Below are positions 9,143 to 36,727 of a DNA stretch of 47,550 nucleotides, piece after piece (within the stretch, counting starts at the first letter, position 1; every line of letters begins with the position of its first letter). Both the position numbers and the translations under genes were made by a program. The stretch spans positions 1 through 47,550 of the forward strand of contig VXOE01000017.1 in assembly GCA_009840225.1 (NCBI GenBank), in the 5' to 3' direction. This DNA comes from Caldilineaceae bacterium SB0662_bin_25. Its GTDB lineage: Bacteria > Chloroflexota > Anaerolineae > Caldilineales > Caldilineaceae. The notes beneath the pieces were generated by a model that was not told the DNA's origin, ran no database searches, and saw nothing but the letters and a program-made list of their open reading frames with translations.

Positions 9143-9440
9143 CGATTGCAACAACTGAACAGTAATGACTGTGAACCGGAATAGTAGCGCTCAGAGCGGG
9201 CACCAGAGAGTCTCGGACAGGTGGAAGCGGGACAGCGGCGCAGAGTGTGAATGGACCGGGGAGTTGGACGGCGAACTGTGGACACGTACCGAAATTGGGG
9301 CCATTTGGCTTCCCAGTAAAGTGAAGTGCCACGTACTAGCTGGATCCGGAGACGCCACCGTTATCAGGGCGCTGCAGTTCAGACAGATGCGCCGCGAGGC
9401 GAGATCGTCTGAGTGCGATGAGTGAGACTGGTGCGAGCAT

Positions 9441-9468
9441 CCCTTGCGTTTCATGCAAGGGTTTTTTT
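9441..9468 (+). terminator. terminator-like hairpin nested in T-box Stem III
   Basis: CCCTTGC (9441-9447) and GCAAGGG (9455-9461) form a 7-bp stem with a 7-nt loop, followed directly by a run of seven T (9462-9468). By shape it is an intrinsic terminator, but it sits inside the longer Stem III helix (9425-9433/9482-9490), so its role is uncertain. Confidence 0.5.
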
Positions 9469-9520
9469 GTTGTCCATTGTTCACCAGTCTAAACAGGGTG
9501 GCACCGCGGGCGTCATGACG

Positions 9521-9573
9521 AACCTCGTCCCTTCTAGCAGCAGTTTATGACTGCTATGGAGACGGGGTTTTTT
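9521..9573 (+). terminator. T-box-controlled intrinsic terminator
   Basis: AACCTCGTC (9521-9529) pairs with GACGGGGTT (9561-9569, one G-U). An inner helix TAGCAG/CTGCTA (9535-9540/9551-9556) extends the hairpin, and a T6 tract ends at 9573. The 5' arm overlaps the TCCCT needed by the antiterminator, so the two structures exclude each other. It lies 48 nt before the trpE start. Confidence 0.9.
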
Positions 9574-9620: not shown

Positions 9621-11162
9621 ATGGCAACCTATAGTCCTTCACTGGAAGAGGTGCGGGAGTTCGCGGCAACCGGAAATACGATCCCGGTGTTCCGGGAACT
9701 GCCAGCCGACCTGGAGACGCCGGTCTCGGTCTACCTGAAATTGCGCAACGGCGGCCCCTCTTTTTTGCTGGAGTCGGTTGAGAAAGGGGAGCAAGTTGGC
9801 CGGTACAGCTTCCTGGGTGTGCGTCCGCCGCTGACGCTGTGCGCACAAGGTGACCAGATGGTCATTGGCGGGTCGGACGGCGCCGAGTTGGAACGCCGGG
9901 AAGGAGACCCGTTCGAGGCCGTGCGCAGCCTTCTGGCGGAACGCTGCCCGGTCGAGGTCCCTGGCCTGCCTCGCTTTTCGGGAGGCGCAGTCGGCTATTT
10001 CGGCTACGACACTGTGCGATTCGTCGAACGCCTGCCCACCACAGCAGAAAGGAAGCTGGCCATCCCGGACATGCTGTTGCTCTTCAGCGACAACCTGGTT
10101 GTCTTCGACCATGTGCAGCACAAATTGCTGGTAATCGCCAACATGCAGACGTCCGGGAAGGGATTGGCAACAGAGGAACAGATAGAGACGGCCTACGCTG
10201 ATGCGATTGCCCGCATCGATGCGATCGTCAGCGACTTGCGCCAACCTCTCACGCCGCCGGAGAATTCGCCTGTTGAGGGTGGTTCCGAGTGGCGCAGCAA
10301 CTTTGCCAAAGAGGAGTACGAAGAGATTGTGCGCCAGGCAAAGGAGTATATCGCTGCCGGCGACATTTTCCAGGTGGTACCCAGTCAGCGCCTCAGCCGT
10401 TCGACTGATGCGGAGCCGTTTGCGATTTATCGCGCTCTTCGCATGTTGAACCCATCGCCCTATATGTACTTCCTGGAATTCAACGGAGTAGCCGGCTTGG
10501 AAGAGATTTCCGGGACCGCCGAGCCGTTGTGGATTATCGGATCCAGTCCGGAAATGCATGTCAGGCTCGAAGACGGTCGCGCCTTCCTGCACCCGATCGC
10601 AGGTACGCGCTGGCGCGGCGAAAACGCTGCCGAGGACGACGCTCTGGCAGAAGGGCTACTGAACGATCCGAAGGAACGGGCCGAGCACGTGATGTTGGTC
10701 GATCTGGGACGCAACGACCTTGGGCGGGTTTGTGAGTATGGCACTGTGAAAGTACCAGAAATGATGGTCATTGAACGTTACAGCCATGTTATGCATATCG
10801 TCAGCGACGTGCAGGGAAAGCTGGCGCCCGGTCACGACGCCATCAGTTTGCTGAAAGCCACGTTTCCGGCGGGTACCGTCAGTGGGGCACCGAAAGTCAG
10901 AGCGATGGAGATTATCGAGGAATTGGAGGGGCTGCGACGCGGGCTGTATGCGGGCGCGGTCGGGTACATCGACTACGATGGCACGATGGACACCTGCATC
11001 GCCATTCGCACAATCGTGATGCAGGGCAAGACCTGCTATCTGCAGGCGGGTGGCGGTGTTGTTGCCGACAGCGATCCCACCTATGAGTGGGAAGAGACGC
11101 TAAACAAGGCCAAGGCACTCTCCGCTGCGGTTCAGCGGGCCGAAGAGGGTCTGGACGATTGA
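9621..11162 (+). CDS. trpE: anthranilate synthase component I
   Basis: TrpE converts chorismate to anthranilate using ammonia delivered by TrpG, the committed step of Trp synthesis. The 513-residue protein has the N-terminal LLES motif ('FLLESVEKGEQVGRYSFLG'), which forms the Trp feedback site in the family. Its chorismate-binding domain includes 'HPIAGTRWRGE', 'DLGRNDLGRV' and 'FPAGTVSGAPKVRAME'. The C-terminal 'GYIDYDGTMDTCIAIRT' segment is also conserved. The PYMYFL segment is present. The ATG at 9621 follows a GAGGAGAGGG purine-rich ribosome site. It is the first gene after the Trp T-box, so its transcription should rise when tRNA-Trp is uncharged. Stop to trpS is 54 nt. Confidence 0.97.
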   Translation: MATYSPSLEEVREFAATGNTIPVFRELPADLETPVSVYLKLRNGGPSFLLESVEKGEQVGRYSFLGVRPPLTLCAQGDQMVIGGSDGAELERREGDPFEAVRSLLAERCPVEVPGLPRFSGGAVGYFGYDTVRFVERLPTTAERKLAIPDMLLLFSDNLVVFDHVQHKLLVIANMQTSGKGLATEEQIETAYADAIARIDAIVSDLRQPLTPPENSPVEGGSEWRSNFAKEEYEEIVRQAKEYIAAGDIFQVVPSQRLSRSTDAEPFAIYRALRMLNPSPYMYFLEFNGVAGLEEISGTAEPLWIIGSSPEMHVRLEDGRAFLHPIAGTRWRGENAAEDDALAEGLLNDPKERAEHVMLVDLGRNDLGRVCEYGTVKVPEMMVIERYSHVMHIVSDVQGKLAPGHDAISLLKATFPAGTVSGAPKVRAMEIIEELEGLRRGLYAGAVGYIDYDGTMDTCIAIRTIVMQGKTCYLQAGGGVVADSDPTYEWEETLNKAKALSAAVQRAEEGLDD

Positions 11163-11216
11163 GACCAGGCAGACGCCAAATTCATTTGGATTTTCCTGTA
11201 AATCCGGGAGGGGAAA

Positions 11217-12272
11217 ATGACACAGAAGAAGCGGATTCTCACCGGCGACCGTCCAACGGGGAAATTACACGTGGGACACTATGTAGGCAGTTTACAGCAC
11301 CGGCTGGCTTTCCAGGAGGAGTACGAATGCTTCTTCATCATAGCCGACCTCCACATGCTGACGACGAAGCCGTCCAAAGAGGACATAGCGCAGATCGGAG
11401 AAAACGCTCGCGAGATCGTTCTCGATCACCTCGCAATTGGAATCGACCCGTCCAAGACATCATTCTATTTGCAGTCAGCCGTGCATGAGATCTACGAGAT
11501 GCACCTGATTCTCAGCGGCATGGTAACGGTCGAGCGCTTGCAACAGTTGCCCACAATCAAGGATATGGCCGCGGCAGCCGAAATGGAGCAGATGCCATAC
11601 AACCTGCTAGGCTACCCTGTGCTGCAGGCGGCCGACATTCTGATGCCGCGCGCGCACATGGTTCCGGTAGGCAAGGACAATGAGTCTCACATTGAAATCA
11701 GCCGGCAGATTGCGCGGCGCTTTAACAACGCCTACTCTGAAGTCTTTCCATTGCCGGACGCATACATCGTCGGCGGCACGCTTGTAGGCACGGACGGACA
11801 AGCCAAGATGAGCAAGAGCCTGGGCAACGCAATCCTGCTCAGCGACGACTCGGCCACGGTCAGGAAGGGGGTGATGAGCATGTATACGGACCCCAACCGT
11901 ATTCGCGCCGACATTCCCGGCACCGTCGAAGGCAACCCGGTCTTCAGCTATCATGACACGTTCAATCCCAATAAGGAGGAAGTGGAAGATCTGAAAAGCC
12001 GGTACCGAGAGGGCGCCGTCGGCGATGTGGAGGTGAAGACGAAACTGTACAACGCCCTGGAAAACTTTCTCGAACCGATCCGTGAACGGCGAGCTTACTA
12101 CGCCGATCAGACCGGCTTCACCGACCAGCTGATCTACGAAGGCACGCAGCGTGCCCAGGAAGAGGCCCGACAGACGCTTATGGAAATGAAGAAAGCGATG
12201 GGATTGACGGGAGTGTGGAATCGGATCCGCCGCTCGAACGAGCGCCGCCAAAAGAGGCTCGCGAAGGCTTAG
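11217..12272 (+). CDS. trpS: tryptophanyl-tRNA synthetase
   Basis: A class I aminoacyl-tRNA synthetase that charges tRNA-Trp. The 351-residue product has HVGH at 18-21 within '[17 protein letters not shown]' and KMSKS at 196-200. The 'GDRPTGKLH' context resembles the TrpRS form found in streptococci and the second TrpRS of Deinococcus more than the B. subtilis/E. coli form; this is from memory of the family. GGGAGGGG lies just before the ATG. Being in the same transcript as trpE, it should be controlled by the same T-box, so shortage of charged tRNA-Trp raises both Trp synthesis and charging. Confidence 0.96.
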
Positions 12273-12300
12273 CCGGGAAACAGGTGAAAGGAGCGGGGCA

Positions 12301-12897
12301 ATGATCGCCGTCATCGACAATTACGATAGCTTCACGTACAATCTGGTACAGTTTTTGGGTGAAATCGTCAATGAGACCCCTCTGCCCGGAGGGGAGGAGG
12401 ACAACCGCATCCAGGTATGGCGTAACGATGCCGTTGAAATCGCGGAGCTGATCGAGAAACGGCCGAACCACATCATAATCAGCCCCGGCCCGGGCACACC
12501 GCAGCAGGACAGCGGCGTCAGCAACGACGTAATCCGTCATATGGGTGACCGGACGCCCATTCTTGGCGTCTGTCTCGGTCAACAGTGCATTGGGCACGTT
12601 CATGGCGGCAATGTCGAGCGGGCCCCGCGGTTGATGCACGGCAAAGTCAGCCCGATTCATCACAAGGGAACGACTCTCTTTCAGGGAATCCCAAGCCCGT
12701 TTACCGCCACCCGATACCATAGTCTGATCGTGGAGGAGCCCTTGCCGGCAGAACTGGAAGCCACAGCCCACACTGTCGAGGGCGAGTTGATGGGCGTCCA
12801 GCACCGGTCAAAGCCAATCTTCGGCGTGCAGTTTCACCCGGAGAGCATTCTGACGGAATACGGGCACGATCTGTTGCGAAACTTCCTTAATGTATGA
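12301..12897 (+). CDS. trpG: anthranilate synthase component II (glutamine amidotransferase)
   Basis: TrpG hydrolyses glutamine and channels ammonia to TrpE. The 198-residue class I amidotransferase shows 'NYDSFTYNLVQ' near the N-terminus, the oxyanion/nucleophile loop with C91 in 'LGVCLGQQ', and the catalytic H179 and E181 in 'FGVQFHPES'. A short insertion around residues 25-36 (rich in Pro, Gly and Glu) lengthens the first module slightly. AAAGGAG precedes the ATG at 12301. Its stop codon overlaps the ATG of the following kinase gene by 4 nt (ATGA), implying translational coupling. It may also serve p-aminobenzoate synthesis, but no pabB is present here. Confidence 0.95.
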   Translation: MIAVIDNYDSFTYNLVQFLGEIVNETPLPGGEEDNRIQVWRNDAVEIAELIEKRPNHIIISPGPGTPQQDSGVSNDVIRHMGDRTPILGVCLGQQCIGHVHGGNVERAPRLMHGKVSPIHHKGTTLFQGIPSPFTATRYHSLIVEEPLPAELEATAHTVEGELMGVQHRSKPIFGVQFHPESILTEYGHDLLRNFLNV

Positions 12898-13973
12898 GCG
12901 GCGCAGCTGGCATGGGTACATGGACACAGGCCGTCCACAACTATCTTACCGGCGCCGCCGCCAGCCGCTTTCGCAGTCAGGAGGTGGTTATCACGGATCA
13001 CTGGCGGGGGCGAGACAACTTGCTCTGGCGGGTCAGATGCGGCGAACGCACCGATGCCGTGGTCAAAATGTTTACAGACGCCGGCCAGGCGCGAAGCCGG
13101 CGGCAGTTCAGCGGGCAGGAGCGGTTTGCACGTGCAGGTTTGGCACCGGAGCCGCTCTGGTATGATCGCTATCCGCACGGACTACCGCGCCAGATCCTGG
13201 TCTACCAGTGGATGGATGGTGGAGTTCTGAAGCTTGCAGAACGCTTCCACCGCACCGCCCACGCCGATGCGGCGGCCCGCGTGCATCGTGCTGACAGGGA
13301 CGAAGTGCAACGATTCAGCCCGCATCCAATCAATCTGCTCACTTTCTGGCAGATTTGGCAAGCAGGGGAAAGCCCTCTGCGTGAGTGGGTATCTGCTGCT
13401 AACGCTCCACTGTTGGCCGACCAGCTCTCAAGGCTTTGGTCGGCCGCGCACGTGCTGATGGATGGCGCGCTGCCTCTGCTTGGTGAAACGCCGCCCTCAC
13501 CAATCCACGGAGACTTGACGGCAGAAAATGCCCTGTTTCACAGAGGGCAGGTTCTATTGGTGGACTGGGAGTTTTTCGGGCTGGGCGACCCGGCCCAGGA
13601 GATCGCCCGCTTTCTGTTTTACGGGGGAGAGGACTGGTCTGATGAGGCCCAAAATGAGTGGCTGGATTACTACCGGGCCGGAAGTTCCGAACCTGATTTG
13701 CCGGATCGAGTCGACCTGTATTTGCGGCTGTTCAACTTTCGGGCAGTAACTTTTTTGCTGGAAGGCATTCGACAGAGGGCCGTCCCGCCACCCGCCGGCA
13801 CAGATCCAGAAGCAGAGGGAGTTGAGTTACATTCTTTTCTCATCAGCGCTTTAACCGCTGCTCTGCGCCGCTCGCTAGTCATATGGGAACTATCTCCGCT
13901 GGGAAGAGGAGACTTTCAACAGTTAGCAGACGAGATCAGTTGTTTGTCAACCATCAAGTCGCGGGAAAGTTAG
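12894..13973 (+). CDS. aminoglycoside phosphotransferase (APH)/choline kinase-fold protein
   Basis: A 359-residue small-molecule kinase-like protein with the APH fold. The catalytic loop is H205-G-D207-L-T-A-E-N212 and the metal-binding Asp is D224 in 'LLVDWEFFGLGDPAQEIA'. The Gly-rich N-lobe is poorly conserved, with K58 in 'AVVKMF' a likely ATP-contact lysine. Its ATG overlaps the trpG stop (ATGA), so it is translated with the trp enzymes. No Trp pathway step needs such a kinase, and its substrate is unknown. A small trp intermediate or an antibiotic-like compound are both possible; sequence does not decide. Confidence 0.8.
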   Translation: MSGAAGMGTWTQAVHNYLTGAAASRFRSQEVVITDHWRGRDNLLWRVRCGERTDAVVKMFTDAGQARSRRQFSGQERFARAGLAPEPLWYDRYPHGLPRQILVYQWMDGGVLKLAERFHRTAHADAAARVHRADRDEVQRFSPHPINLLTFWQIWQAGESPLREWVSAANAPLLADQLSRLWSAAHVLMDGALPLLGETPPSPIHGDLTAENALFHRGQVLLVDWEFFGLGDPAQEIARFLFYGGEDWSDEAQNEWLDYYRAGSSEPDLPDRVDLYLRLFNFRAVTFLLEGIRQRAVPPPAGTDPEAEGVELHSFLISALTAALRRSLVIWELSPLGRGDFQQLADEISCLSTIKSRES

Positions 13974-14030
13974 CTGTCGACATTTTCCGCGGATTCAATG
14001 ATACAGTTCGAATAGACAGGAGAAGCAGTT

Positions 14031-15080
14031 ATGGCGTCACTCATACATGAAGCACTGGAATCGATTCTGGCCGGTCAGGATCTTAACGCCGACGCGGCCG
14101 ACGCGGCGATGACTCAGATCATGAGCGGCCAGGCGACCGATGCCCAGATCGGCGCGTTCCTGGCGGGGCTGCGTATAAAAGGAGAAAGCGTCGCTGAAAT
14201 CACCGGTTGCGCCCGGGCGATGAAGCGCGTCGCAGTGCCGGTGCGGCCTGCTCTCAACGGACAGCGCCTCCTTGACACCTGCGGTACGGGCGGTGATCAA
14301 ACCGGCACGTTCAACATCAGTACCACCGTTGCTTTCGTCGTCGCGGGGGCCGGCGAAAAGGTGGCAAAGCACGGCAACAGGTCTGCCAGCAGTCAGTGCG
14401 GCAGCGCTGATGTGCTTGAGGAGTTGGGCGTTCGATTGGACCTGGGTCCTGAACAGGTCGCAGAGTGCATCGAGGACGTTGGCATCGGCTTTCTGTTCGC
14501 ACCGCTGTACCACCCCGCCATGAAGTACGCCATTGGCCCGCGCAGGGAGCTGGCGACGCGCACTATTTTCAACATCCTCGGTCCGCTGACAAACCCGGCA
14601 TATGCCACGCACCAGGTAATCGGCGTACCCAGCATCGACTTGACAGCGCAGATGGCGGAAGTCTTGGGGGAGATGGGAAGCACTGCAGCGATTGTAGTCC
14701 ATGGCACTACTGATGACGGGCGCGGCGTGGACGAGTTGATCACGAATGGAATAAATCACATCAGTCATCTGCGCGAAGGTGAAGCCAGAATAAGTGAACT
14801 TTCTGCAACTGATCTCGGTCTTTCGCCTGCATCGCTCGACGACCTGGTTGGGGGCGACGCAGGCACAAACGCCGCTATCACCCGGGGAATCCTCAATGGT
14901 GAACTGCACGGCCCCAAGCGGGATGTGGTACTATTGAACACGGCGGCGGCCTTGGCAACCGAGAACGGTGACTGGGAGGCAGGGCTGACCGCGGCGGCAG
15001 AATCGATCGACAGCGGCGCAGCGCAGGACTCGCTAACCAGATTTATCGAGAAGACGCAGAGCTTCAGCGGAAACCAATAG
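14031..15080 (+). CDS. trpD: anthranilate phosphoribosyltransferase
   Basis: TrpD transfers the phosphoribosyl group of PRPP to anthranilate. The 349-residue protein has the family signatures DTCGTGGDQTGTFNIST (the GTGGD phosphate loop), KHGNRSASSQCGSADVLE, and 'GPRRELATRTIFNILGPLTNP'. An AGGAG motif lies 8 nt upstream of the ATG. The 57-nt gap from the kinase gene and the 4-nt gap to trpC place it within the operon. It is full length, with no missing key residues. Confidence 0.97.
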   Translation: MASLIHEALESILAGQDLNADAADAAMTQIMSGQATDAQIGAFLAGLRIKGESVAEITGCARAMKRVAVPVRPALNGQRLLDTCGTGGDQTGTFNISTTVAFVVAGAGEKVAKHGNRSASSQCGSADVLEELGVRLDLGPEQVAECIEDVGIGFLFAPLYHPAMKYAIGPRRELATRTIFNILGPLTNPAYATHQVIGVPSIDLTAQMAEVLGEMGSTAAIVVHGTTDDGRGVDELITNGINHISHLREGEARISELSATDLGLSPASLDDLVGGDAGTNAAITRGILNGELHGPKRDVVLLNTAAALATENGDWEAGLTAAAESIDSGAAQDSLTRFIEKTQSFSGNQ

Positions 15081-15084
15081 TAAA

Positions 15085-15933
15085 ATGGCCAGGTTTTCTC
15101 AGTTGGAAATCAGCAAACACAAGGGACAGGTGCTTGACAGGATCATGGCCTGGAAGCGCCAGGAGGTGGCACGTCAGATGGAGGATGTGCCTCTGGCCGA
15201 ACTCAAGGCCCTTGTGTCGTTAGCCGAGCCGCCTCTGGATTTCGCGGCAGCAATTACAGCCGAGCGTGGGGCAAGTCTCATCGCCGAAGTGAAGCGTGCG
15301 AGCCCCTCCAAGGGGTTGATCGCCCAGGATTGGTCACCGACTGCGATTGCTGAGACGTACGCCGCCAGTGGCGCGGCCGCGATATCCTGCCTGACCGATG
15401 CACGTTTCTTCCAGGGGAAACTAGCCTACCTGGCGGAAATCGTCGAGCACCTGCGCGCCAGGAACCTGTCTACGCCATTGCTGCGCAAAGAGTTTATCTT
15501 TCATCCCTATCAGGTTTACGAGGCGCGCGCGGCTGGGTCGGACGCACTTCTTCTGATCGTAGGCGTATTGGGCGACACCGAATTACGGGAACTCGTAAGC
15601 TTGACGAATCAGTTGGGGATGGACGCGTTGGTGGAAGTCCATGATGAGGAGGAGGTAGCGCGCGCGCTGGCGGCTGAGGCTCAAGTTATCGGGGTAAACA
15701 ATCGTAACCTGAAGACGTTCGAGGTAGATATCGAAACCACCGCCCGGTTACGCAAACTGATCCCTGCCGACATAATTCTGATCGGCGAGAGCGGAATCCG
15801 AAATGCGATCGATGTGGGGCGTATGGCTGAGATGGGTTGCGATGCCATACTCGTGGGCGAAAGCTTCTGCAAGTTGCCCCAGGCGGAGCGAGGCCCTCTT
15901 GTGCGCGAATTCGTGCTCGCAGGCATGCAGTGA
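15085..15933 (+). CDS. trpC: indole-3-glycerol phosphate synthase
   Basis: TrpC closes the indole ring from carboxyphenylaminodeoxyribulose phosphate. The 282-residue TIM barrel contains 'SLIAEVKRASPSKG' (catalytic E and K), 'LLRKEFIFHPYQVYEARAAG' (second catalytic Lys), 'VNNRNLKTFEVD' and 'LIGESGIRN...GCDAILVGES' (phosphate site). The start ATG at 15085 is only 4 nt after trpD and lacks its own Shine-Dalgarno, consistent with coupling. It is a single-function enzyme, not fused to trpF. Confidence 0.96.
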   Translation: MARFSQLEISKHKGQVLDRIMAWKRQEVARQMEDVPLAELKALVSLAEPPLDFAAAITAERGASLIAEVKRASPSKGLIAQDWSPTAIAETYAASGAAAISCLTDARFFQGKLAYLAEIVEHLRARNLSTPLLRKEFIFHPYQVYEARAAGSDALLLIVGVLGDTELRELVSLTNQLGMDALVEVHDEEEVARALAAEAQVIGVNNRNLKTFEVDIETTARLRKLIPADIILIGESGIRNAIDVGRMAEMGCDAILVGESFCKLPQAERGPLVREFVLAGMQ

Positions 15934-26632: not shown

Positions 26633-27442
26633 TTACCCGTCCGCCCCTCTGTGGCTGCCGGCCGCCAACTCCTCCGCCAGAGTACGTACGGCGTCGACGC
26701 CCGCGTCCGCGCCGGCGGCTTTCACCAACGCCGAACCGACGACTACTCCCTCGACGATCTCGGACACCCTCGCGGCCTGCGGGCCGGTACTGATCCCGAA
26801 GCCGACCGCCAAGGGCAAGTCGGTGTGACGACGCACGCGTTCAACGAAGGCAGGCAGATAAGGCGGCAGCTCTTCGCGAGCGCCGGTGATTCCGGTTACG
26901 CTCACGAGATAGATGAAACCTGTGGAATGCCTGGCAACCGACTTTATGCGTTCTTCGGTGCTGGTGGGGGCAAGCATGTAAATAGTGGCCAATCCGACAG
27001 CACGACAGGCAGGCTCCAGTAGCTCCGACTCTCCCGGCGGCAGATCGGGGACGATCAGCCCGTCGATACCTGCACTGGCCGCGGCATTTGCGAAGCGCTC
27101 TTCCCCGAAAGCAAGAATTGGATTGTAGTAACTCATGGCGCAAAAGGGCGTGTCTACGCCCTGGTCGCGCAGCTCGCGCGCCATTTTGAGGCAGTCGGCA
27201 ACGGAAGTGCCGCCAACGAGCGCCGCATAGGTGGCCGTCTGAATCGTGGGTCCGTCGGCCAGGGGGTCGCTGTGAGGTATGCCAAATTCGACGATGTCTG
27301 CGCCGGCTCTCGCCAGGGCAGCGACTACCTCCAGAGACTGCTGCCGGGTGGGATAGCCCATTGCATGGTAAGGCATGAATGCAGCGGCGCCAGTCGTTTT
27401 CAGTTCGCGAAATACCTGCTCGATCCGTTCGACTCCCCTCAT
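26633..27442 (-). CDS. trpA: tryptophan synthase alpha chain
   Basis: TrpA cleaves indole-3-glycerol phosphate to indole and glyceraldehyde 3-phosphate and channels indole to TrpB. The 269-residue barrel contains '[20 protein letters not shown]', '[21 protein letters not shown]' (catalytic Glu and Asp), '[11 protein letters not shown]', '[12 protein letters not shown]' and '[16 protein letters not shown]'. The near-invariant first region differs a little (YHAMGYP instead of TAGDP). AGGTGA lies a few nt before the ATG. It is the last gene of the minus-strand operon, 29 nt after trpB. Confidence 0.96.
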
Positions 27443-27471
27443 CTTTCACCTCTCGCCCCATGCTTGCCCAT

Positions 27472-28722
27472 CTATTTGGCTCCTCCGATTGTCTGCATGA
27501 CCGTACCCAGATCCTTGTCGCCGCGTCCGCTGAGATTAACCAAGATCACCTGGTCCCGCGCCATCTGTGGAGCAAGCTCCAACACATAGCCGATGGCATG
27601 TGCACTTTCCAACGCAGGGATAATCCCCTCCAGTTCGCACAGTGCACTAAACCCCTTGAGAGTCTGTGTATCTGTGCAGTAGGTGTATTCGGAGCGTCCA
27701 ACGTCTCGAAGCCAGGCATGTTCAGGGCCCACACTGGCATAATCCAAGCCGGCGGAAATCGAATGGGTCAGGGCGATTTGCCCGTCACCGTCCTGCAGCA
27801 CGAAGCTCTTGGTACCCTGCAGGACGCCGAGCCGGCCCCGTTCCGGGTCGGCGAAACGAGCGGCATGGGCGCCGTCTTCGATGCCGTGCCCGCCTGCCTC
27901 GACGCCGATGAGTCGAACGCTTTCCTCTTCGAGGAATGGATGGAAGATGCCGATGGCGTTACTGCCGCCGCCGACGCAAGCCACAATTACGTCAGGCAGC
28001 CGGCCCGGGCCGCCTTCAGCGGGATCCTGCATCTGGCTGTGGGCCTCGCTGCCGATGATCGATTGGAAGTCCCGTACCATGGCAGGATAGGGATGGGGGC
28101 CAAGTGCGCTGCCCAGCAGGTAGTGGGTGGTATCTACATTTGTGACCCAGTCGCGAATGGCCTCATTGATGGCGTCTTTGAGCGTCTGTGAGCCGCTGTC
28201 GACTGCGCGCACCTCGGTACCGAGGAGCTGCATGCGAAAGACATTCGGCTTCTGACGTTCCATGTCCACCGTGCCCATATAGACGATGCACTCGATTCCC
28301 AGCAGCGCAGACGCCGTGGCGGTGGCGACGCCGTGCTGACCGGCGCCGGTTTCGGCCACGATGCGCGTCTTGCCCATCTTGCGTTTCATCAACAGGGCCT
28401 GACCCAGGGCATTATTGATCTTGTGGGCACCGGAGTGGGCGAGGTCTTCCCGCTTCAGATAGATTTGGGCGCCGCCTAACTCTTCGCTCAGGCGGCGGGC
28501 ATAGGTCAGTGGGGTCGGACGTCCAACGTACGTGTGCTGAAGATGGGCCAGTTCAGCCATAAACTCCTGGTCAATGCGGGCGTTCAGGTAAGCTTCTTCC
28601 AGTTCGTCCAGCGCCGGCATAAGCGTCTCTGGCACGTACTTGCCTCCATACGGACCGAAACGCCCCGTCTCGTCCGGAACGGCGCCGTAGTTAACAGGTG
28701 TCGATGTTTTTGAAAGAGTCAT
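27472..28722 (-). CDS. trpB: tryptophan synthase beta chain
   Basis: The PLP enzyme that condenses indole with serine. The 416-residue protein has '[19 protein letters not shown]', the PLP lysine in '[21 protein letters not shown]', the substrate loop '[18 protein letters not shown]', and the PLP phosphate loop '[17 protein letters not shown]'. The open frame continues to 28809 but ATG 28722 is chosen since GAGG precedes it by a few nt and other TrpB1 proteins begin near there. It belongs to the TrpA-partnered TrpB1 type. It lies in the aro operon rather than with the other trp genes, 43 nt after aroE. Confidence 0.97.
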
Positions 28723-28765
28723 CAGTACCTCGCATTCGGTGTGGCGACGGTTGCCCATCAGTCCG

Positions 28766-29701
28766 TCATCTGCGCTCGAATATGATATTCGTTGCCTGCT
28801 GCATAACATCCACCGGCGCGGTTTCGCCGGTCCATTTTTCCCAGGCGATAGCGCCCTGGTAAACCAGCATGCCCAGGCCTCCTATGGCTGTAGCCCCGTC
28901 GGTAGAGGCCAGTTGCAGCAGTCGGGTCATGGCCGGATTGTAGACAAGGTCGTAGACGATTTGATCTTCACGGAATTCAACATTTTCCTCCCAAGGGAGC
29001 CCTTCGATGCGCGGCTCCATACCTAACGAGGTACAGTTAACGATCAGGTTCGCATCCTGGGCGCTGCCTGTCACATCGTCGGGAAAGGCGGCGCTGTCGA
29101 CTCTGATTTCCGGGAAGTAAGACTGCATCGTTGCCGCCAGATCGACGGCCTTCTCAACGGTGCGGTTGAGAATCATCACACTTTCCACTCCGGCCTCTGC
29201 AAGTCCATATACGACTGCCCTCGAGGAGCCGCCCGCCCCGATCACCAAGGCCCGCCTGCCTTCCGGCTCAACATTGTGAGCTTTCAGATCGGCAATGAAT
29301 CCTGCGCCATCTGTGTTGTCTCCAGTGAGCTGGCCATCCTTTTCGACGACTATTGTATTGACGGCGCCTATGGCTTCTGCCGCGGGTGTCCAGTGTTGCA
29401 GGTGGGGCATGACCGCCTGCTTGTGTGGAACGGTCACGTTGACACCCCTCAATCCCAGTGCGGGCAAGGCGGCAACAGCCTCGGATACTCGTTCGGGCGG
29501 CACTGCGAAGGCCAGGTAACGCCAGTTCATTTGGCGTGCTACGAACGCGGCATTGTGCATCTGCGGGCTGATGGAATGAGTGACCGGCCAGCCGAACAGC
29601 CCAACGAGCGTTGTCGCGGCATTGATGTCGGTCGGAAATATATCCGAATCAGTCCCATCCGAAGGGACGGAGGCCGATTCATTCTGCAGTGGTTTACTCA
29701 T
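28766..29701 (-). CDS. aroE: shikimate dehydrogenase
   Basis: AroE reduces 3-dehydroshikimate with NADPH. The 311-residue product shows the substrate motif '[12 protein letters not shown]', catalytic Lys in 'GVNVTVPHK', catalytic Asp in 'DNTDGAGF', and NADP loop '[13 protein letters not shown]'. The first 30 residues are a non-conserved Ser/Asp-rich extension, so a later start is possible, although no better ATG is seen. Its start overlaps the aroA stop by 8 nt, implying coupling. Confidence 0.95.
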
Positions 29702-31025
29702 CGTCGCTTGCCCACTCCAGTTCTTGCACGTTTACGTTGAGCGCGCGCAACGTAGATTCGAAACCGGGAAAACTGTCGGCGGTAACGTGCGCGTTACGGA
29801 TGGTGGTCTCCCCGTCGGCAATCACGGCGGCCACGGCCAATGCCATCGCCAGCCTGTGATCGCGGTGGCTATCCACGGTTGTGCCCTTGAGCGGCGTCGG
29901 TCCGTCCACGATAAAGCCGTCGGCGGTCTCCTGAATCCGAGCACCCATCTTTTTGAGTTCTGAGACGGTCGTGGCGATTCGATCGGTCTCCTTTACGCGC
30001 AGTTCCTGGGCGTCGCGCACAACGGTGCGCCCTTCGGCCTGTGTCGCGGCAACGGCCAGGACCGGCAACTCGTCGATCATGGTGACGATCTGTGCGCCGC
30101 CGAGTTCCAAGCCCCGGAGCCCGCCGCCGCTGACGATCAGATCTGCCACGGGCTCACCACCCTGAAATGGCCGTTCTCTGCGCCGAATCCTAGCCCCCAT
30201 CTCTGAAAGAGCATCGACGATCCCTGTACGGGTCGCATTGACCCCCACATCGACAATCGTCAGGTTACTGTCCGGCAACGCGGACGCGCCAACCAACAGG
30301 AATGCGGCCGAGGAGATATCGCCGGGAACGAGGATGTTCAGAGGGTTGAGCGGCGAGTGGGGACGCTCGCTATGCGTCGTGTTGCCTAGTGCCGTGACCG
30401 GGGCGCCCATCGATTTCAACATGCGTTCGGTATGGTCACGTGCGGGTCCGGGCTGGTGAACGACTGTCAGGCCGTGGGCGTAGAGGCCTGCCAACAGGAG
30501 ACAGCTCTTGACTTGGGCGCTGGCGACCGGCATATCGTATTCGATAGCGGAGAGGCGGGAGGGAATGATTGTAAGAGGCGCGAACCTGCCATTTTGGCGT
30601 CCGAAAATCTGGGCGCCCATCGAGCGCAAAGGGTCGACAATCCGGGCCATAGGACGCCCGCGAATCTGAGCCGTCCCGCTGAGTACGCTAACGAACACCT
30701 GTCCAGCCAACAGCCCGGATAGCAGTCGCATCGTCGTACCACTGTTATCGCAGTCGAGCACGTCATTGGGCTCTTTCAAGCCATCAAGCCCGACGCCGTG
30801 AACCTCGAGGCGCGTGCGACTGATTTCATCGATGCGCACGCCCATCGCCCGCATGATGTTCATTGTGGCCCGACAGTCGTGACCGTCGAGAAAGTTACGA
30901 ATGTGCGTGGATCCTTCGGCAATAGATCCGAAGATCACCGCCCGATGGCTGATGGACTTATCCCCAGGGACCCCGCACCGACCGACGAGGGGACCTTCAC
31001 TGCTGATTTTGAGTATGTCTGCCAT
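29694..31025 (-). CDS. aroA: 3-phosphoshikimate 1-carboxyvinyltransferase (EPSP synthase)
   Basis: AroA joins shikimate 3-phosphate and PEP. The 443-residue two-domain protein has 'PGDKSISHRAVIFGSIAEG', 'DCDNSGTTMRLLSGLLAG', 'ELPVLAVAATQAEGRTVVRDAQELRVKETDRI' and 'DHRLAMALAVAAV'. The motif NSGTTMRLL differs from the E. coli-like NAGTAMRPL form, so it belongs to a different EPSPS subgroup. No good ribosome site precedes the ATG; the gene is 121 nt downstream of tyrA. It is complete. Confidence 0.96.
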   Translation of the reverse strand: MADILKISSEGPLVGRCGVPGDKSISHRAVIFGSIAEGSTHIRNFLDGHDCRATMNIMRAMGVRIDEISRTRLEVHGVGLDGLKEPNDVLDCDNSGTTMRLLSGLLAGQVFVSVLSGTAQIRGRPMARIVDPLRSMGAQIFGRQNGRFAPLTIIPSRLSAIEYDMPVASAQVKSCLLLAGLYAHGLTVVHQPGPARDHTERMLKSMGAPVTALGNTTHSERPHSPLNPLNILVPGDISSAAFLLVGASALPDSNLTIVDVGVNATRTGIVDALSEMGARIRRRERPFQGGEPVADLIVSGGGLRGLELGGAQIVTMIDELPVLAVAATQAEGRTVVRDAQELRVKETDRIATTVSELKKMGARIQETADGFIVDGPTPLKGTTVDSHRDHRLAMALAVAAVIADGETTIRNAHVTADSFPGFESTLRALNVNVQELEWASDDE

Positions 31026-31146
31026 TGGAGGTTTGGGTTGAATTGGGACGTACAGGCCAATGTGTGTTCAATATGGGTTTCTGCTTCCGATTTATTGGGG
31101 GCTTCGAATCGGGTAGCCTTTCTGCGTCGACAGGCGAGGGCTCATG

Positions 31147-32046
31147 TCAGCCCAGCGCCGGCGTGGCTAACGGACCTTTCTTTTGCCGCCATGCTGCACG
31201 CGTAGCCTGCGAACAGGAGAGCTTACTCTGCAGAGTATCTTCATCGTTATCAGCGAGAAGCGTTCGCAGTTCCTGAAGATGCACACCCAGGGTGTCCAAC
31301 TGTTCCAAGACCGCTTCCCGATTGGTCACCAGAATGTCCAGGAACATCTGCGTATCGCTAGCTGCCACCCGACTGGTGTCGCGAAACCCGCCTGCTGCCA
31401 GCTCCCAGACGGCGGGGTCTTCGTCCCCACAGTCACTGACTGTGTGCACCAAGGCGCTCGCCAGTAGAAAGGGCAGATGGCTTATGGCAGCAACGAGCTG
31501 GTCGTGGCGGTCCGGCTGCATAGTTATAGGGAAGGCCCCGATTGCCTCCGCCAGTTCGGAGGCCAGCTCAATTGTTTCCGTCGACGTGCGGGGCAGGGGC
31601 GTGAGCACCCACGGCGCGCCCTCGTAGAGACCACTTTCTGCGGAGGCGTATCCGGCAGTCTCTTTGCCGGTCATGGGATGGCCGCCAATTGGCTGAACAC
31701 GGGGAGGCAACTGGTCCATGGCCGCGCAGATTTCGGCTTTGGTGCTTCCCATATCCATAACAATGGTACCCGGCCACAGGATTGGCCCGAGCGTCTCCAG
31801 CATCTTGACGACAGCGCGAACAGGCGTGGACAAGATGACAATATCGGCCCCGGCAACTCCGGAGCTGAGATCTGTTGTCGCCAAGTCGACAGAGTTTTCG
31901 TGAAAGGCGCGCAGGATTGTGCCGAAATTGCGGGTAACGCCCCTCACTTCACGGCACAGGTTGCGTTGTTTCAGATCGATACACAGGCTTGCGCCCATCA
32001 GGCCAAGCCCGATGACTGTTACACTACACTCGGAAAGGGATTTCAT
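31147..32046 (-). CDS. tyrA: prephenate dehydrogenase
   Basis: TyrA makes 4-hydroxyphenylpyruvate from prephenate with NAD(P). The 299-residue protein has the Rossmann motif '[10 protein letters not shown]' near the N-terminus, 'STPVRAV', 'DMGSTKAEI', and the prephenate-binding '[16 protein letters not shown]'. A helical C-terminal dimerisation region follows; no ACT domain or chorismate mutase is fused. Arogenate as substrate cannot be excluded from sequence. It sits in the minus-strand aromatic operon, 88 nt after the nearer aroF. Confidence 0.94.
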
Positions 32047-32134
32047 GTATAGACTGTCGTTGCTTAGTTCCCGCTCCTGTTATTCCGGTTAGAGCGGTCA
32101 GGTGAACTGCCGCCTCGCGTCCAGGTTCAGGAAA

Positions 32135-33151
32135 TCAGAGTTGACGTCCAACGGCACTGGCAACAGATTTCAGTTCCTGCATCAGTGAGCCGAAGTGCTC
32201 GAAAGTCAGACTTTGGGCGCCGTCGCTCCAAGCCTTTGACGGGTCTGGATGTACTTCGATCATCAGTGCGTCTGCACCTGCGGCAACCGCGGCCTTCGCA
32301 ATGGGGGCAACGTACTCCCACTGGCCCGTACCGTGTGCCGGGTCGGCCACGACAGGCAGGTGAGTCAACTGCTTCAACACGGGGATGGCATTGATGTCAA
32401 AAGTGTTGCGGGTGGCAGTCTCGTAAGTCCGGATCCCGCGCTCACAGACCATCACCTGCATGTTTCCGTTGCTCAGAATGTATTCGGCCCCCATCAGCAA
32501 CTCTTGAATCGTGCCGCTGATGCCCCGCTTCAGGAAGACCGGTTTGGTCGTCTTGCCCACGGCCTTCAGGAGCGGGTAATTCTGGTTGTTGCGGGCGCCG
32601 ATCTGAAAGATGTCAGTGTAGTCGCCAACCAGTTCGATATCCTCGGAACTCATCACCTCGGTGATGATCGGGAGACCGGTCTGCTCTCTGGCCTCAGCCA
32701 GGTATTTGAGGCCCTCTTCGCCCAGGCCCTGGAAGCTGTACGGGCTACTGCGCGGTTTGAATGCGCCACCGCGGAGAACTGAGCCGCCGGCTTCTTTGAC
32801 AGCGTGCGCCGTCTCCAGGATTTGCTCGCGGCTTTCCACACTGCAAGGACCGGCCATTACCACGACTTTCTCACCGCCGATGTCTGTGCCATTGACGGGA
32901 ATGGTAGTCGACGACTGAACGAAGTCACGACTGGCGTACTTGTAGGGCTGCATAATACGGACTGTTTTTTCCACTCCCTCAAGGACTTCGAATGTGTCCT
33001 GTTGGATCAGATAGTCGTCGGCGCCTATGATGCCAACAATTGTGCGGGCTTCTCCGCGGCTCAGATGCACCTTGTAGCCGAGCTCTTCTACGCGCTTGAC
33101 GACTTCCTCTACTTGCTCCTGCGAGGCTCCTTGCCTCATTACAACAATCAT
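32135..33151 (-). CDS. aroF: DAHP synthase, type I-beta (copy 1)
   Basis: DAHP synthase starts the shikimate pathway from PEP and erythrose 4-phosphate. The 338-residue protein matches the Thermotoga-type enzyme in length and layout: an N-terminal ferredoxin/ACT-like regulatory domain (1-70) and a barrel with '[13 protein letters not shown]', '[19 protein letters not shown]', '[17 protein letters not shown]', '[12 protein letters not shown]', and '[10 protein letters not shown]'. ATG 33151 is preferred over 33187 because AAAGGA is about 7 nt upstream and homologues start there. It is adjacent to a second, closely related copy. In the family the N-terminal domain gives Tyr/Phe feedback inhibition. 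Confidence 0.95.
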
Positions 33152-33244
33152 GGACAGATCCTTTCCCGTTATGGTTGCGTGGCTCAAATGTCGATTTGGA
33201 CTGCGTACTGCGATAGATTGGGCCTATTTCCCTCCAAGGACCGT

Positions 33245-34348
33245 TCAGGCCAACACGGCGCCAGTCTCCATTTCAACTGAATTTCGCACACCCTTGTCGG
33301 CGGTTGCAGCGGGGTGATCCGTTTCCGTTGGCGTTGCAATCGAGCGGCCCACGGCCTCTGCGACCTTCGTTAAAGAGCACATCAGATCGGCGAACCGCTC
33401 CGGTTTGAGACTCTGGTCCCCGTCACTCAAGGCTGACTCCGGGTCTGGGTGGACCTCCAGAATTAGCGCGTCGGCCCCAGCCGCTACTGCAGCTAGCGAC
33501 ATGGGCGACACCAGTTCCCAGTCGCCCGTGCCGTGCGCCGGGTCGGCGACCACTGGCAGGTGTGAGGCCCGCTTGAGAACGGGAATTGCGTTGAGATCGA
33601 AGGTATTGCGGGTGGCAGTTTCGTAGGTACGGATACCGCGCTCGCACAGCATCACCTGCATGTTTCCGTTGCTCAGGATGTACTCGGCGCACATCAGCAG
33701 TTCCTGGATTTCGCCGCTGAGGCCGCGCTTGAGCATGACCGGTTTACGAGTTTTGCCGACTGCCTGGAGAAGTGCGTAATTCTGCATATTGCGGGCGCCG
33801 ATCTGGAGGATATCCACATACTCGGCCACCAGGTCGATCGTCTCAACAGTCATCACTTCGGAGATGACCGGCAGGCCTGTTATCTCCCTGGCCTCGGCCA
33901 GGTACTTCAGCCCCTCCTCGCCAAGCCCCTGGAAGCTGTACGGGCTGGTGCGCGGCTTGAAAGCACCGCCTCGCAGTACACTGGCGCCGGCATCTTTGAC
34001 GGCGATGGCGGTCTGAATAATTTGATCCCTGCTCTCGACGCTGCAGGGCCCGGCCATGACGACAACCTGCTCGCCCCCAAAACTGACGCCGTTCACGTTT
34101 ACGATGGTACGCTCAGGGTGTGTAGCTCTGCTTGCAAGCTTGTACGGGTCCTGGATGCGCACAGTCTTTTGGACGCCCGACATCGCATCAAAGGTCGCCC
34201 TTTGCATCAGGGTCAAGTCGCCGAGAAGGGCGATGACGGTATGACTTTCGCCACATATTGGCTGAGTTTGAGCGCCCATCGAGGCAGCGCGCTTGATTAC
34301 GTTTTCGATCTCGGTATCAGAGGCCTGTGGTTTCATTACGACTACCAT
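33245..34348 (-). CDS. aroF: DAHP synthase, type I-beta (copy 2)
   Basis: A second DAHP synthase of 367 residues, 93 nt upstream of copy 1 in the same operon. The catalytic barrel is nearly the same as copy 1, including long identical runs around '[13 protein letters not shown]' and '[17 protein letters not shown]'. The N-terminal regulatory domain differs much more ([18 protein letters not shown] against [18 protein letters not shown], then diverging), and about 30 extra residues extend the C-terminus. AGGAG lies just upstream of the ATG. The pair probably arose by tandem duplication; different feedback control is plausible. Confidence 0.95.
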
Positions 34349-34449
34349 TTATCTCTCCTGTATCTTGAATTCTTATTCGGAGGATTTGACACTTTCAGTG
34401 TCAAGAGCGCATTCGCTACCCTTTGCCGGAGATTCGAGTCCTTGGAGTT

Positions 34450-35307
34450 CTAAATCTGCAACGTAGCCTCTTGTGCAAACTCTTCAGGGGTAGGTTGCAC
34501 GGCAGCGGGGTAACTGCCCAGCATTTTGACAAAGGCGGCCCTGTTGAGCAGCCCCAAGACGGCAGCACTGCAGTCAGGCTCCTGCCAGTGGCCCTCAAAG
34601 TCCAGATAGAACACATATTGCCAGGGCCGGTTGCGGCGCGGGCGGCTCTCCAGTTTGACAAGATTGATGTTGCGTTCGGCGAACTCACCGAGACAGGCGT
34701 AAAGTGCACCCGGGCTGTGTGGCGTGGCAAAGACGAGGGAAGTTTTGGCGTTTGACGACTGCTGGGCGTCGCCTTTGCCGATGACAAAAAAGCGCGTGAA
34801 GTTGAAGTGCAGGTCCTCGATGCCCTGTTGGACCATCTCCAAGCCATAGATTTCAGCTGCCAGCGCGCTTGCTATGACGCCCACCTTCGGCTCGGGATGC
34901 TCTGCCAGTTCCTTGGCGCTGCCGGCCGTGTCATACCAAGGTATGGCCGTGTAGCCGTGGCGGTTGAGAAAGCTTTCGCACTGTGCCAGGGCCTGCGGAT
35001 GGCTGCGCACTTGCTCAATGTGGTCACCATTGCCCGGCAAAGTCAGTAGATTGTGACGCACACGCAGCAGGATTTCTCCCTGTACGCGAAAATCATGATC
35101 AAGTAAGAGGTCATAGGCTTTATTGATGCTGCCGGCGAGCGAGTTTTCCACAGGCACTACGCCCACAGTAGAGCGGTCATCATCCAACGAAGCGAATATA
35201 TCCTCGAATGTCCTGATGGGCAGAGTATCGACCTCCGCACCGAACTGCTGGCGGATAGCCTCTTCAGAATAGGCGCCGTGCTCTCCCTGAAAAGCTACTA
35301 CTGTCAT
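34450..35307 (-). CDS. pheA: prephenate dehydratase
   Basis: PheA converts prephenate to phenylpyruvate. The 285-residue protein has '[12 protein letters not shown]', '[13 protein letters not shown]', the catalytic T171-R-F motif, and a C-terminal ACT domain (about 190-265) with the Phe-binding ESRP (220-223). It is monofunctional; chorismate mutase is supplied by the adjacent aroH. The frame is open to 35406 but ATG 35307 is chosen since GGAG is 8 nt upstream and homology begins at once. Phe feedback through the ACT domain is expected from the family. Confidence 0.96.
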
Positions 35308-35377
35308 CGGATTGCTCCATGGTTGCCTGACGTCAAAATTGAGCGTCTTCCTGGTCCAAGTCTCCAATTGGGCGCCG

Positions 35378-35815
35378 TCAAGACCAGTTCTCCAACTGCT
35401 CATCAATCCACTGATTCAGTTCGTCCAAGTCAATTTCGGATGCCAACCTCTTGTCAGGGCGCAGAGCCACAGCCTCCTTAAGATAGACATGCTGGATTTC
35501 CTTCTGCGGCGTATCGGTATTCCAGTTGATCAGAACGCGAATACAACGTGGAACAGTGTCTGCAACACGCATTTCATGGCCGCAAAGCATGGGCACATCC
35601 ATCCAACCCAACTGTCGGGCGGCCAGCGCAGGGAATTGACTGACCACATCGAAAGTTGTCGTAAAGATTGCACTGGCCACGTCTTCAGACTGGATATTGT
35701 TAAGACGAATCATAAATGCCAACAGTTCTCTGGTTGCCCGCAAAATAGATTCGGGCGTGTCCTCTTCAATAGTTGTTGCGCCCCGCACACCTCGACAGAC
35801 CACGGCATTCTCCAT
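35378..35815 (-). CDS. aroH: chorismate mutase, AroH type
   Basis: A 145-residue AroH-class chorismate mutase, the trimeric fold known from Bacillus subtilis, not the helical AroQ class. Family residues can be placed by comparison with the Bacillus enzyme: '[11 protein letters not shown]' (active-site Arg), C78 and E81 in '[10 protein letters not shown]', and R93 in '[10 protein letters not shown]'. A tail of about 20 residues after the core is charged. It is the first structural gene of the minus-strand operon, directly downstream of the attenuator. The ribosome site is weak (GCAGCG). Confidence 0.94.
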
Positions 35816-35937
35816 TTTTTCGCTGCGTCGTGCACACGTTGGAGGATACGGTACCTAACGACTTAATTTTTTCTGATACCTCGTTGCGCGTGGCAAGTAT
35901 GCGCACGTGCTGCGGGCAAAATTGCTTTCGGGCCAAC

Positions 35938-35968
35938 AAAAAAAGCGTGGAGTTCGTCTCCACGCTTT
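35938..35968 (-). terminator. intrinsic terminator of the aroH attenuator
   Basis: On the minus strand a perfect 11-bp hairpin (arms 35958-35968 and 35942-35952, 5-nt loop) ends in a run of seven T (35944 down to 35938). It lies between the leader ORF stop and aroH, about 120 nt before the aroH ATG, so it can only act as an attenuator of the downstream operon. Confidence 0.92.
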
Positions 35969-35991
35969 GAGTGTCTTTACGTTGACTGCCC

Positions 35992-36222
35992 TTACACAGC
36001 CCAACGCTCCTCAACCAGCGGAGACGGTTGGTTCACGCCAAAATAATAACCAAACCAAAAGTTGCCAAAAGAAAACCCGCGCCACTCATGGCGCAGGTTG
36101 CTGGACAACAGGATTTCCGCGGCCGACGGGCCATCCAAGAGGTTGATTGGCAGAAGAGAGTCGTCTTCGCTACGAATCAGATCGGCGATTGTCACTGGTG
36201 CTTCGCTTCGTTCGGTAGTCAC
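35992..36222 (-). CDS. aromatic-codon leader peptide (attenuator)
   Basis: This leader ORF (76 codons from GTG 36222) has no enzyme-like features but carries an extraordinary run: codons 50-61 read FSFGNFWFGYYF, 8 aromatic residues of 12 (five Phe, two Tyr, one Trp), with another Trp at 47. The stop codon is 24 nt before the intrinsic terminator in front of aroH. Such a layout is that of leader peptides whose translation senses charged tRNAs. The true start is unclear: GTG 36222 has a distant AGGA, while TTG at 36108 with GGAAA upstream would give a 38-codon peptide of more usual length. Either start keeps the aromatic cluster. Confidence 0.8.
   Translation of the reverse strand: MTTERSEAPVTIADLIRSEDDSLLPINLLDGPSAAEILLSSNLRHEWRGFSFGNFWFGYYFGVNQPSPLVEERWAV
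36012..36030 (-). promoter_or_regulatory. antiterminator segment of the aroH attenuator
   Basis: On the minus strand GTCTCCGCT (36025-36017) can pair with the terminator 5' arm AGCGTGGAGAC (35966-35956): six contiguous pairs plus three across a 2-nt bulge. It lies in the loop of a 5-bp hairpin (CAACC/GGTTG, 36030-36026 and 36016-36012). A ribosome stalled near codon 61 would cover the 5' arm of that hairpin and release the segment. Confidence 0.6.
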
Positions 36223-36279
36223 TCTGTCAAATCGTCCTATTGGCAGGGCGGCTGGGGTTTCTTCAGGACATTGAGGGAG

Positions 36280-36308
36280 AGATTACCACAGGGCAAAACA
36301 GATGTCAA
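36280..36308 (-). promoter_or_regulatory. promoter of the aroH-trpA minus-strand operon
   Basis: On the minus strand a perfect TTGACA (36308-36303) is followed after 17 bp by TAATCT (36285-36280), preceded by TGG (extended -10-like). Predicted transcription starts near 36273, about 50 nt before the leader GTG and 460 nt before aroH. Confidence 0.6.
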
Positions 36309-36727
36309 TTCCGTTGCCGCGAAATTCAAGAATAAGAAAAGCAAGTCCCTCCTCACCCTTTTTGGAGGAGATGCCGGGCAAGGTCTCATGGCAGTATGAG
36401 GAATCCAGCAAGACGGCACTTAGTCCCTCCGCAGGCAAAGGAGCGACTCCATCGGAGGCCATAAAAGCGGTTGAGCAGCATCCAGGCAGGACCCAGCCGG
36501 TTGGTCGTCGCGTCGATTGGCCAACTGTCATTGTTCGAAAGAGGAGGGACGGCGAGAAGTGTCCGTGAGGATTTTCTCCTAGCACCGCCGGAAATTTTCC
36601 TAATAGCTGGTAACTCTGAAGAGAGTGTCATTGGGCCAGATTCCAGAGCCGGTCCCCATCTTGCACATCCCATGCCGTTCCCCGACAATTGTTAGCCAGG
36701 CAGTTCATAGGCTGTCAATGCGTAGGG
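36309..36727. other. non-coding region between divergent transcripts
   Basis: No gene is supported here. Short open frames on both strands lack ribosome sites or family features. The region separates the minus-strand aromatic promoter from the forward SDR gene. Confidence 0.45.

Follow-up and report, generated by a model that had tools for sequence, protein, structure and literature searches.

What controls the nine-gene aroH-pheA-aroF-aroF-tyrA-aroA-aroE-trpB-trpA operon of Caldilineaceae bacterium SB0662_bin_25, and which amino acids does that control sense? The initial annotation, made from the sequence alone, proposed that a leader-peptide attenuator in front of aroH reads all three aromatic tRNAs. 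We analyzed the surrounding 47,550-nucleotide stretch of contig VXOE01000017.1 (hereafter the window), and our genome-wide statistics are drawn from this 47.5-kb window and from fetched loci. Sequence evidence makes it very probable that transcription of the aromatic operon is controlled by a ribosome-mediated attenuator at this locus, and the features on which this reading is built are collected in Table 1.

Table 1. Positions in the window of the leader elements, the operon and the trp T-box
Feature	Position	Strand	Basis
Promoter TTGACA-N17-TAATCT, extended TG-type -10 (TGTGGTAATCT)	36280..36308	-	Sequence
Leader ORF, 76 codons, GTG start, TAA stop	35992..36222	-	Intact in genus, pN/pS 0.16
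Hairpin H1 (9-11 bp, 4-nt loop) followed by TTTTCTTTT, intrinsic-terminator-like	36067..36097	-	Covariation, terminator scan
Putative control codons 50-61, F S F G N F W F G Y Y F	36040..36075	-	pN = 0, pS = 0.21
Segment C (GTCTCCGCT), putative antiterminator 5' strand	36017..36025	-	Own-versus-swapped pairing test
Hairpin H2 around the leader stop codon	35979..36007	-	Prediction, made for almost every one of 22 relatives
Segment D, the part that pairs with C (GTGGAGACG), putative antiterminator 3' strand, common to the upper 5' arm and loop of T2	35955..35963	-	
Terminator T2, 11-bp stem, ACGAA loop, seven T	35938..35968	-	Sequence and terminator scan
Operon aroH-pheA-aroF-aroF-tyrA-aroA-aroE-trpB-trpA	26633..35815	-	Pfam, NCBIfam; gene order kept in relatives
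trp T-box (RF00230), UGG specifier (GAA-UGG region)	9162-9535	+	82.5 bits, just below the Rfam gathering score

A leader rich in aromatic codons precedes the operon

Pfam and NCBIfam matches agree with the nine gene identities first assigned from the translations, with aroH encoding an aroH-type chorismate mutase and both aroF genes a DAHP synthase. From the alignment with relatives, the GTG at 35803-35801 is a more probable aroH start than the ATG at 35815. The tandem aroF copies (33245-34348 and 32135-33187, minus strand) are kept in most relatives, and G015 has a tandem pheA besides.

Upstream of aroH, on the minus strand, the promoter consists of TTGACA at 36308-36303, a 17-nt spacer and TAATCT at 36285-36280. 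Since this -10 element shares 3 of 6 positions with TATAAT, a strict consensus promoter scan omits it; the looser pattern TTGACA-N16-18-TANNNT is found 5' of the leader at all 37 Caldilineaceae loci examined (21/21 in a first set and 16/16 in a second). The leader ORF runs from the GTG at 36222 to the TAA at 35994-35992. Its GTG is invariant within the genus, and an AGGA lies 12 nt 5' of it; that this distant AGGA is the sole one at the start codon counts against the attenuator reading. Codons 50-61 comprise five Phe, two Tyr and one Trp (8/12 aromatic), a composition kept across the genus. Across its six reading frames, the 47.5-kb window offers 71,127 12-codon windows; only the one at codons 50-61 has at least eight aromatic codons, and 1.4 million windows from codon-shuffled frames yielded none.

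The initial annotation had thus placed the promoter, leader ORF, codon counts, C segment and terminator correctly on the minus strand. Every element in its parts list is present, while the list lacked a second terminator-like hairpin (H1), the hairpin at the stop codon (H2) and the wide distribution of the leader.

The leader is conserved in the genus, the family and the phylum

All 16 other genomes of the genus carry an intact leader, and the substitution values in Table 1 come from 16 genomes with equal-length leaders. Beyond the genus, a leader profile search with a permissive threshold matched 14 of 17 Caldilineaceae genera, several of them weakly. When 13 Caldilineaceae genera were read base by base, promoter, leader, H1, C, stop-codon hairpin and T2 appeared in constant order in highly divergent sequences. 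At the level of the class, six or more aromatic codons within 12 occur upstream of 42 of 43 aroH-headed loci, compared to 6 of 430 length-matched random segments. The 40 class leaders that have a terminator represent 18 families, and every one of them includes Phe as well as Tyr codons. Elsewhere in the phylum, two families not belonging to the class carry comparable leaders that include a C-like segment. Together with the covariation described below, these comparisons give a positive outcome for the check proposed with the initial annotation, conservation and covariation of the leader frame, aromatic cluster and hairpin, in the genus, in the family, in 18 families across the class and in two more elsewhere in the phylum. 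None of the 14 pheA loci lacking such an operon has an aromatic leader, the second pheA of this genome included. This leaderless paralogue (G000:C65:849-1727, L214) is 69% identical and also occurs in G006.

A conserved ORF could also encode a small functional protein or a modified peptide, with the terminator incidental to it. Codons 20-41 of the leader (36100-36165, minus strand) are indeed conserved at the amino acid level within the genus (LLPINLLDGPSAAEILLS, pN/pS 0.11), and LL(D/N)GPTA, located 5' of the control codons, is common to five genera. However, this region is not kept in other genera and families, where the aromatic run, C and the hairpins alone persist, and the leader peptide matches no Pfam or NCBIfam family. 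We rejected a small-protein gene as the main function and regard this explanation as very improbable. A nascent-peptide effect, or an RNA constraint of an unrecognised sort, could account for the conservation of codons 20-41 in the genus.

T-boxes occur in this genome, so a T-box or another ligand-binding riboswitch might be expected at the site, but the conserved element is an ORF under purifying selection. Rfam returned no family at gathering scores for 35700-36700, where the only matches at E values up to 10 were at chance level. We rejected the T-box family (RF00230) and every other Rfam RNA, amino-acid leader families included, for want of a match in this interval, and consider a riboswitch of either kind here next to inconceivable.

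Segment C and the terminator arm covary

The terminator T2 is formed by arm D (35968-35958) and arm E (35952-35942), with its seven T at 35944-35938; in nearly all relatives, the terminator of the leader lies about 80-116 nt past the aromatic block. Segment C is located inside the leader ORF, 5' of the stop codon. It begins 14 nt past codon 61 here, and the gap between the last aromatic codon and C is 0-20 nt in nearly all relatives. Since C:D and T2 compete for arm D, the two pairings are mutually exclusive.

MAFFT misaligns arm D across two leader subtypes, so we scored C:D covariation by pairing each C with its own or with a swapped D instead of by alignment columns. Across 54 leaders, the mean helix score was 22.4 with the genome's own D and 17.6 with the D of other genomes, and the best of 20,000 permutations reached 19.5 (p about 5e-5). 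Matched changes in C and D are seen in G024, G361, G020, G023 and G187: the pair that reads GTCTCC with GGAGAC in this genome is GCTCCACGC with GCGTGGAGC in G024, TTCGTCAT with ATGACGAA in G361, TTGTCGCCATCT with GGATGGCGACAA in G020 and GATGTTCCGCGC with GCGTGGAGCATC in G187. The earlier suggestion that C is able to pair with the terminator arm is thereby borne out. Counting against an attenuator, the predicted C:D helix is weak in some relatives, with 3 bp in G338 and 5 bp in both G121 and G141.

Between C and D lies H2, whose sequence differs among relatives. Its mean z score in the 22 relatives is -1.6 against mononucleotide shuffles, and 21 of the 22 values are below zero. In our model, H2 would draw C and D together if the stop codon is free of a ribosome. 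A short hairpin between C and C' (CTCC...GGAG), present in many relatives, was weighed as an anti-antiterminator and dropped as weak and short.

A terminator-like hairpin lies inside the leader ORF

H1, also called by the terminator scan, has its stem region at 36097-36076 and is followed by a U-tract that encodes Phe-Ser-Phe. In 37 sequences, which comprise 16 different arm pairs, pairing holds in 138 of 144 cells and two-sided changes occur in 5 of 9 pairs; pairing drops when one arm is shifted by one or two bases. Codon choice in the U-tract is skewed as well, with TTT in 72 of 74 cases at F50 and F52 and TCT in 35 of 37 at position 51, compared to TTT in 31 of 79 (39% of Phe) and TCT in 15 of 177 (8% of Ser) in the operon genes. 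The peptide motif PR...(W)RGFSF is no usual protein motif: PR...RG is what the CCCGCG...CGCGGG hairpin encodes and FSF or FYF what the U-tract encodes.

All 14 Caldilineaceae representatives have H1, and a strict scan detected it in 14 of 40 class-level leaders compared to 16 of 1,200 random places. Aromatic leaders from other Chloroflexota families (L187, L202, L206 and L274-L302) differ in length, and H1 is often missing from them, so a safeguard against untranslated transcripts may vary by lineage.

The E. coli trp model features pause hairpins. One is likewise included in the model for ilvBNC of Corynebacterium glutamicum (PMC11857589), and H1 is placed 5' of the switch; it may, in a variant of the attenuator model, be a pausing hairpin that synchronises polymerase with ribosome, like the trp 1:2 hairpin, and not a terminator. 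On the other hand, the nine-base tract with eight U located 3' of the H1 stem, kept by unusual codon choice, is the signature of a terminator and not of a hairpin pause. We take the pausing role seriously, while stopping short of calling it probable.

A kinetic switch could couple leader translation to termination

Stalling, termination efficiencies, what H1 and H2 do and whether Trp is sensed are matters that we infer from the sequence and from predicted folds. RNA polymerase would initiate near 36273, with a ribosome trailing along the leader ORF. A shortage of charged tRNA-Phe or tRNA-Tyr, and probably of charged tRNA-Trp also, would stall the ribosome within codons 50-61. Since the last control codon is just far enough 5', segment C would stay free and pair with D as it emerges, with H2 folded between them, so that D:E could not form and transcription would read through to aroH...trpA. 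With ample amino acids, the ribosome would cross C, reach the stop codon and sit between C and D, allowing D:E to pair and the U-run to terminate transcription.

We folded the leader with the ribosome-covered RNA masked. With the ribosome stalled at the last control codon, the probability of C:D in this genome is 0.98-0.99 before arm E has emerged. T2 forms if the ribosome is placed at the stop codon, the upstream RNA being excluded by assumption of the model. In folding without a ribosome, C:D still comes first, which predicts read-through of an untranslated leader unless H1 acts; H1 and its U-tract are the best candidate to stop or pause such a transcript. Counting against the attenuator reading, T2 wins at equilibrium in most species, so the switch must be kinetic.

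A fuller scheme, which we offer tentatively and with some doubt, has two terminators acting in series. H1, whose U-tract consists of Phe codons, would stop untranslated transcripts, and T2 would query the charging of Phe, Tyr and Trp tRNAs. A single attenuator would then integrate three aromatic tRNAs for an operon covering nearly the whole pathway, and this arrangement, conserved in Caldilineaceae, would have been derived from a Phe/Tyr version that is common in the phylum.

Phe and Tyr are general, while Trp is confined to some leaders

The initial claim that all three aromatic tRNAs are read is supported in part: codons for Phe and Tyr are universal in the class leaders, and those for Trp occur in only 14 of the 40. 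Within the genus, the central Trp codon is invariant, and 12 of the 13 Caldilineaceae genera that have an RGFSF-type leader retain it. It is absent in the genus g26, although the operon of that genus carries trpBA, and is absent in G338 too. Operons that include trp genes are found mainly in Caldilineaceae; G187, of another family, has trpEGDC-BA in its operon and an aromatic block that ends in YYW.

A Trp codon and its absence are in a ratio of 9:1 for operons with trp genes and 6:27 for those without (Fisher p about 7e-5, in a hand-made table whose trp-bearing cases are mostly from one clade), so the link of the Trp codon to trp genes is suggestive and not phylogenetically independent. A strict rule tying the Trp codon to trp genes in the operon was rejected, because g26 contradicts it and several operons without trp genes carry Trp codons.

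These patterns bear on whether the leader is a Phe/Tyr attenuator with an incidental lone Trp codon, such that Trp starvation alone would bring no derepression and Trp would be handled by the T-box of the trpE operon. The rarity of Trp codons in the class leaders favors such an arrangement, as does g26. In addition, many leader Trp residues sit in WRGF, whose codons build H1, and the same window contains a T-box with a UGG specifier on trpE-trpS-trpG-trpD-trpC. The C. glutamicum leader AroR, with the codons Phe-Tyr-Phe, is reported to show no Tyr response (PMC11802643), so the presence of a codon does not always mean that it is sensed. Against an incidental Trp codon stand its invariance in the genus and retention across Caldilineaceae, the YYW of G187 and, with the dependence noted above, the association with trp genes. 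A leader that would respond to Phe and Tyr alone is a substantial possibility that we would place somewhat below even.

Discussion

The trp and pheA leaders of Enterobacteria (trpL and pheL) resemble the Chloroflexota leader in their clustered cognate codons and in the choice between an antiterminator and an intrinsic terminator before the operon. They are directed at one amino acid each, whereas the Chloroflexota leader covers Phe, Tyr and usually Trp. It also differs from them in having C within the ORF, 5' of the stop codon, and a terminator-like hairpin within the ORF, and it belongs to a different phylum, has an unrelated sequence and matches nothing in Rfam.

Closer in function is AroR of C. 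glutamicum (PMC11802643, PMC4046766), which also combines aromatic codons (Phe-Tyr-Phe) with ribosome stalling before a DAHP synthase operon, aroF. However, AroR has three aromatic codons and is reported to be Tyr-insensitive, while the leaders described here usually have 6-10 in 12, often with Trp, and precede most of the pathway. Several end products of a shared pathway are likewise represented in one leader in ilvGMEDA and ilvBNC, where the C. glutamicum IlvL peptide contains Ile, Val and Leu codons (PMC11857589); those leaders concern branched-chain amino acids and have other structures, in contrast to the aromatic leader. The Acholeplasma motif uORFC-13-1 (PMC8632094) is also a predicted uORF with a Phe-coding U-run and a terminator before aroF, but it has at least one Phe codon only and comes from another phylum with another structure.

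In a 2010 survey, leader-peptide attenuators were then known from Proteobacteria and Actinobacteria only, and one Firmicutes case was added (PMC2965389). A literature search for attenuators in Chloroflexi or Chloroflexus, with most subscription papers outside its reach, found no description of the present leader. Our findings would extend leader-peptide attenuation across another phylum, before a pathway for three essential amino acids and in a form without an Rfam entry. They also point to a terminator-like U-tract that doubles as control codons. Moreover, the leaders form a natural series, from Phe/Tyr to Phe/Tyr plus Trp and with operons that either include or lack trp genes, which offers a way to test how codon sensing evolved.

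The trp T-box is the sole T-box match in the window and precedes trpE, trpS, trpG, a phosphotransferase-family (APH-family) gene, trpD and trpC (genes at 9621-15933, plus strand). Like the aromatic leader, it would sense an aromatic tRNA and control aromatic biosynthesis by attenuation; unlike the leader, it reads the tRNA directly, responds to Trp only and has no leader ORF. The pathway is divided between this tRNA-reading T-box on the trpE operon and the ribosome-reading leader, and the two share one pathway within 30 kb. Elsewhere in the genome, three more T-box candidates, all below the Rfam cut-off, are located at G000:C251:11582-11787, C268:210-476 and C152:20087-20363.
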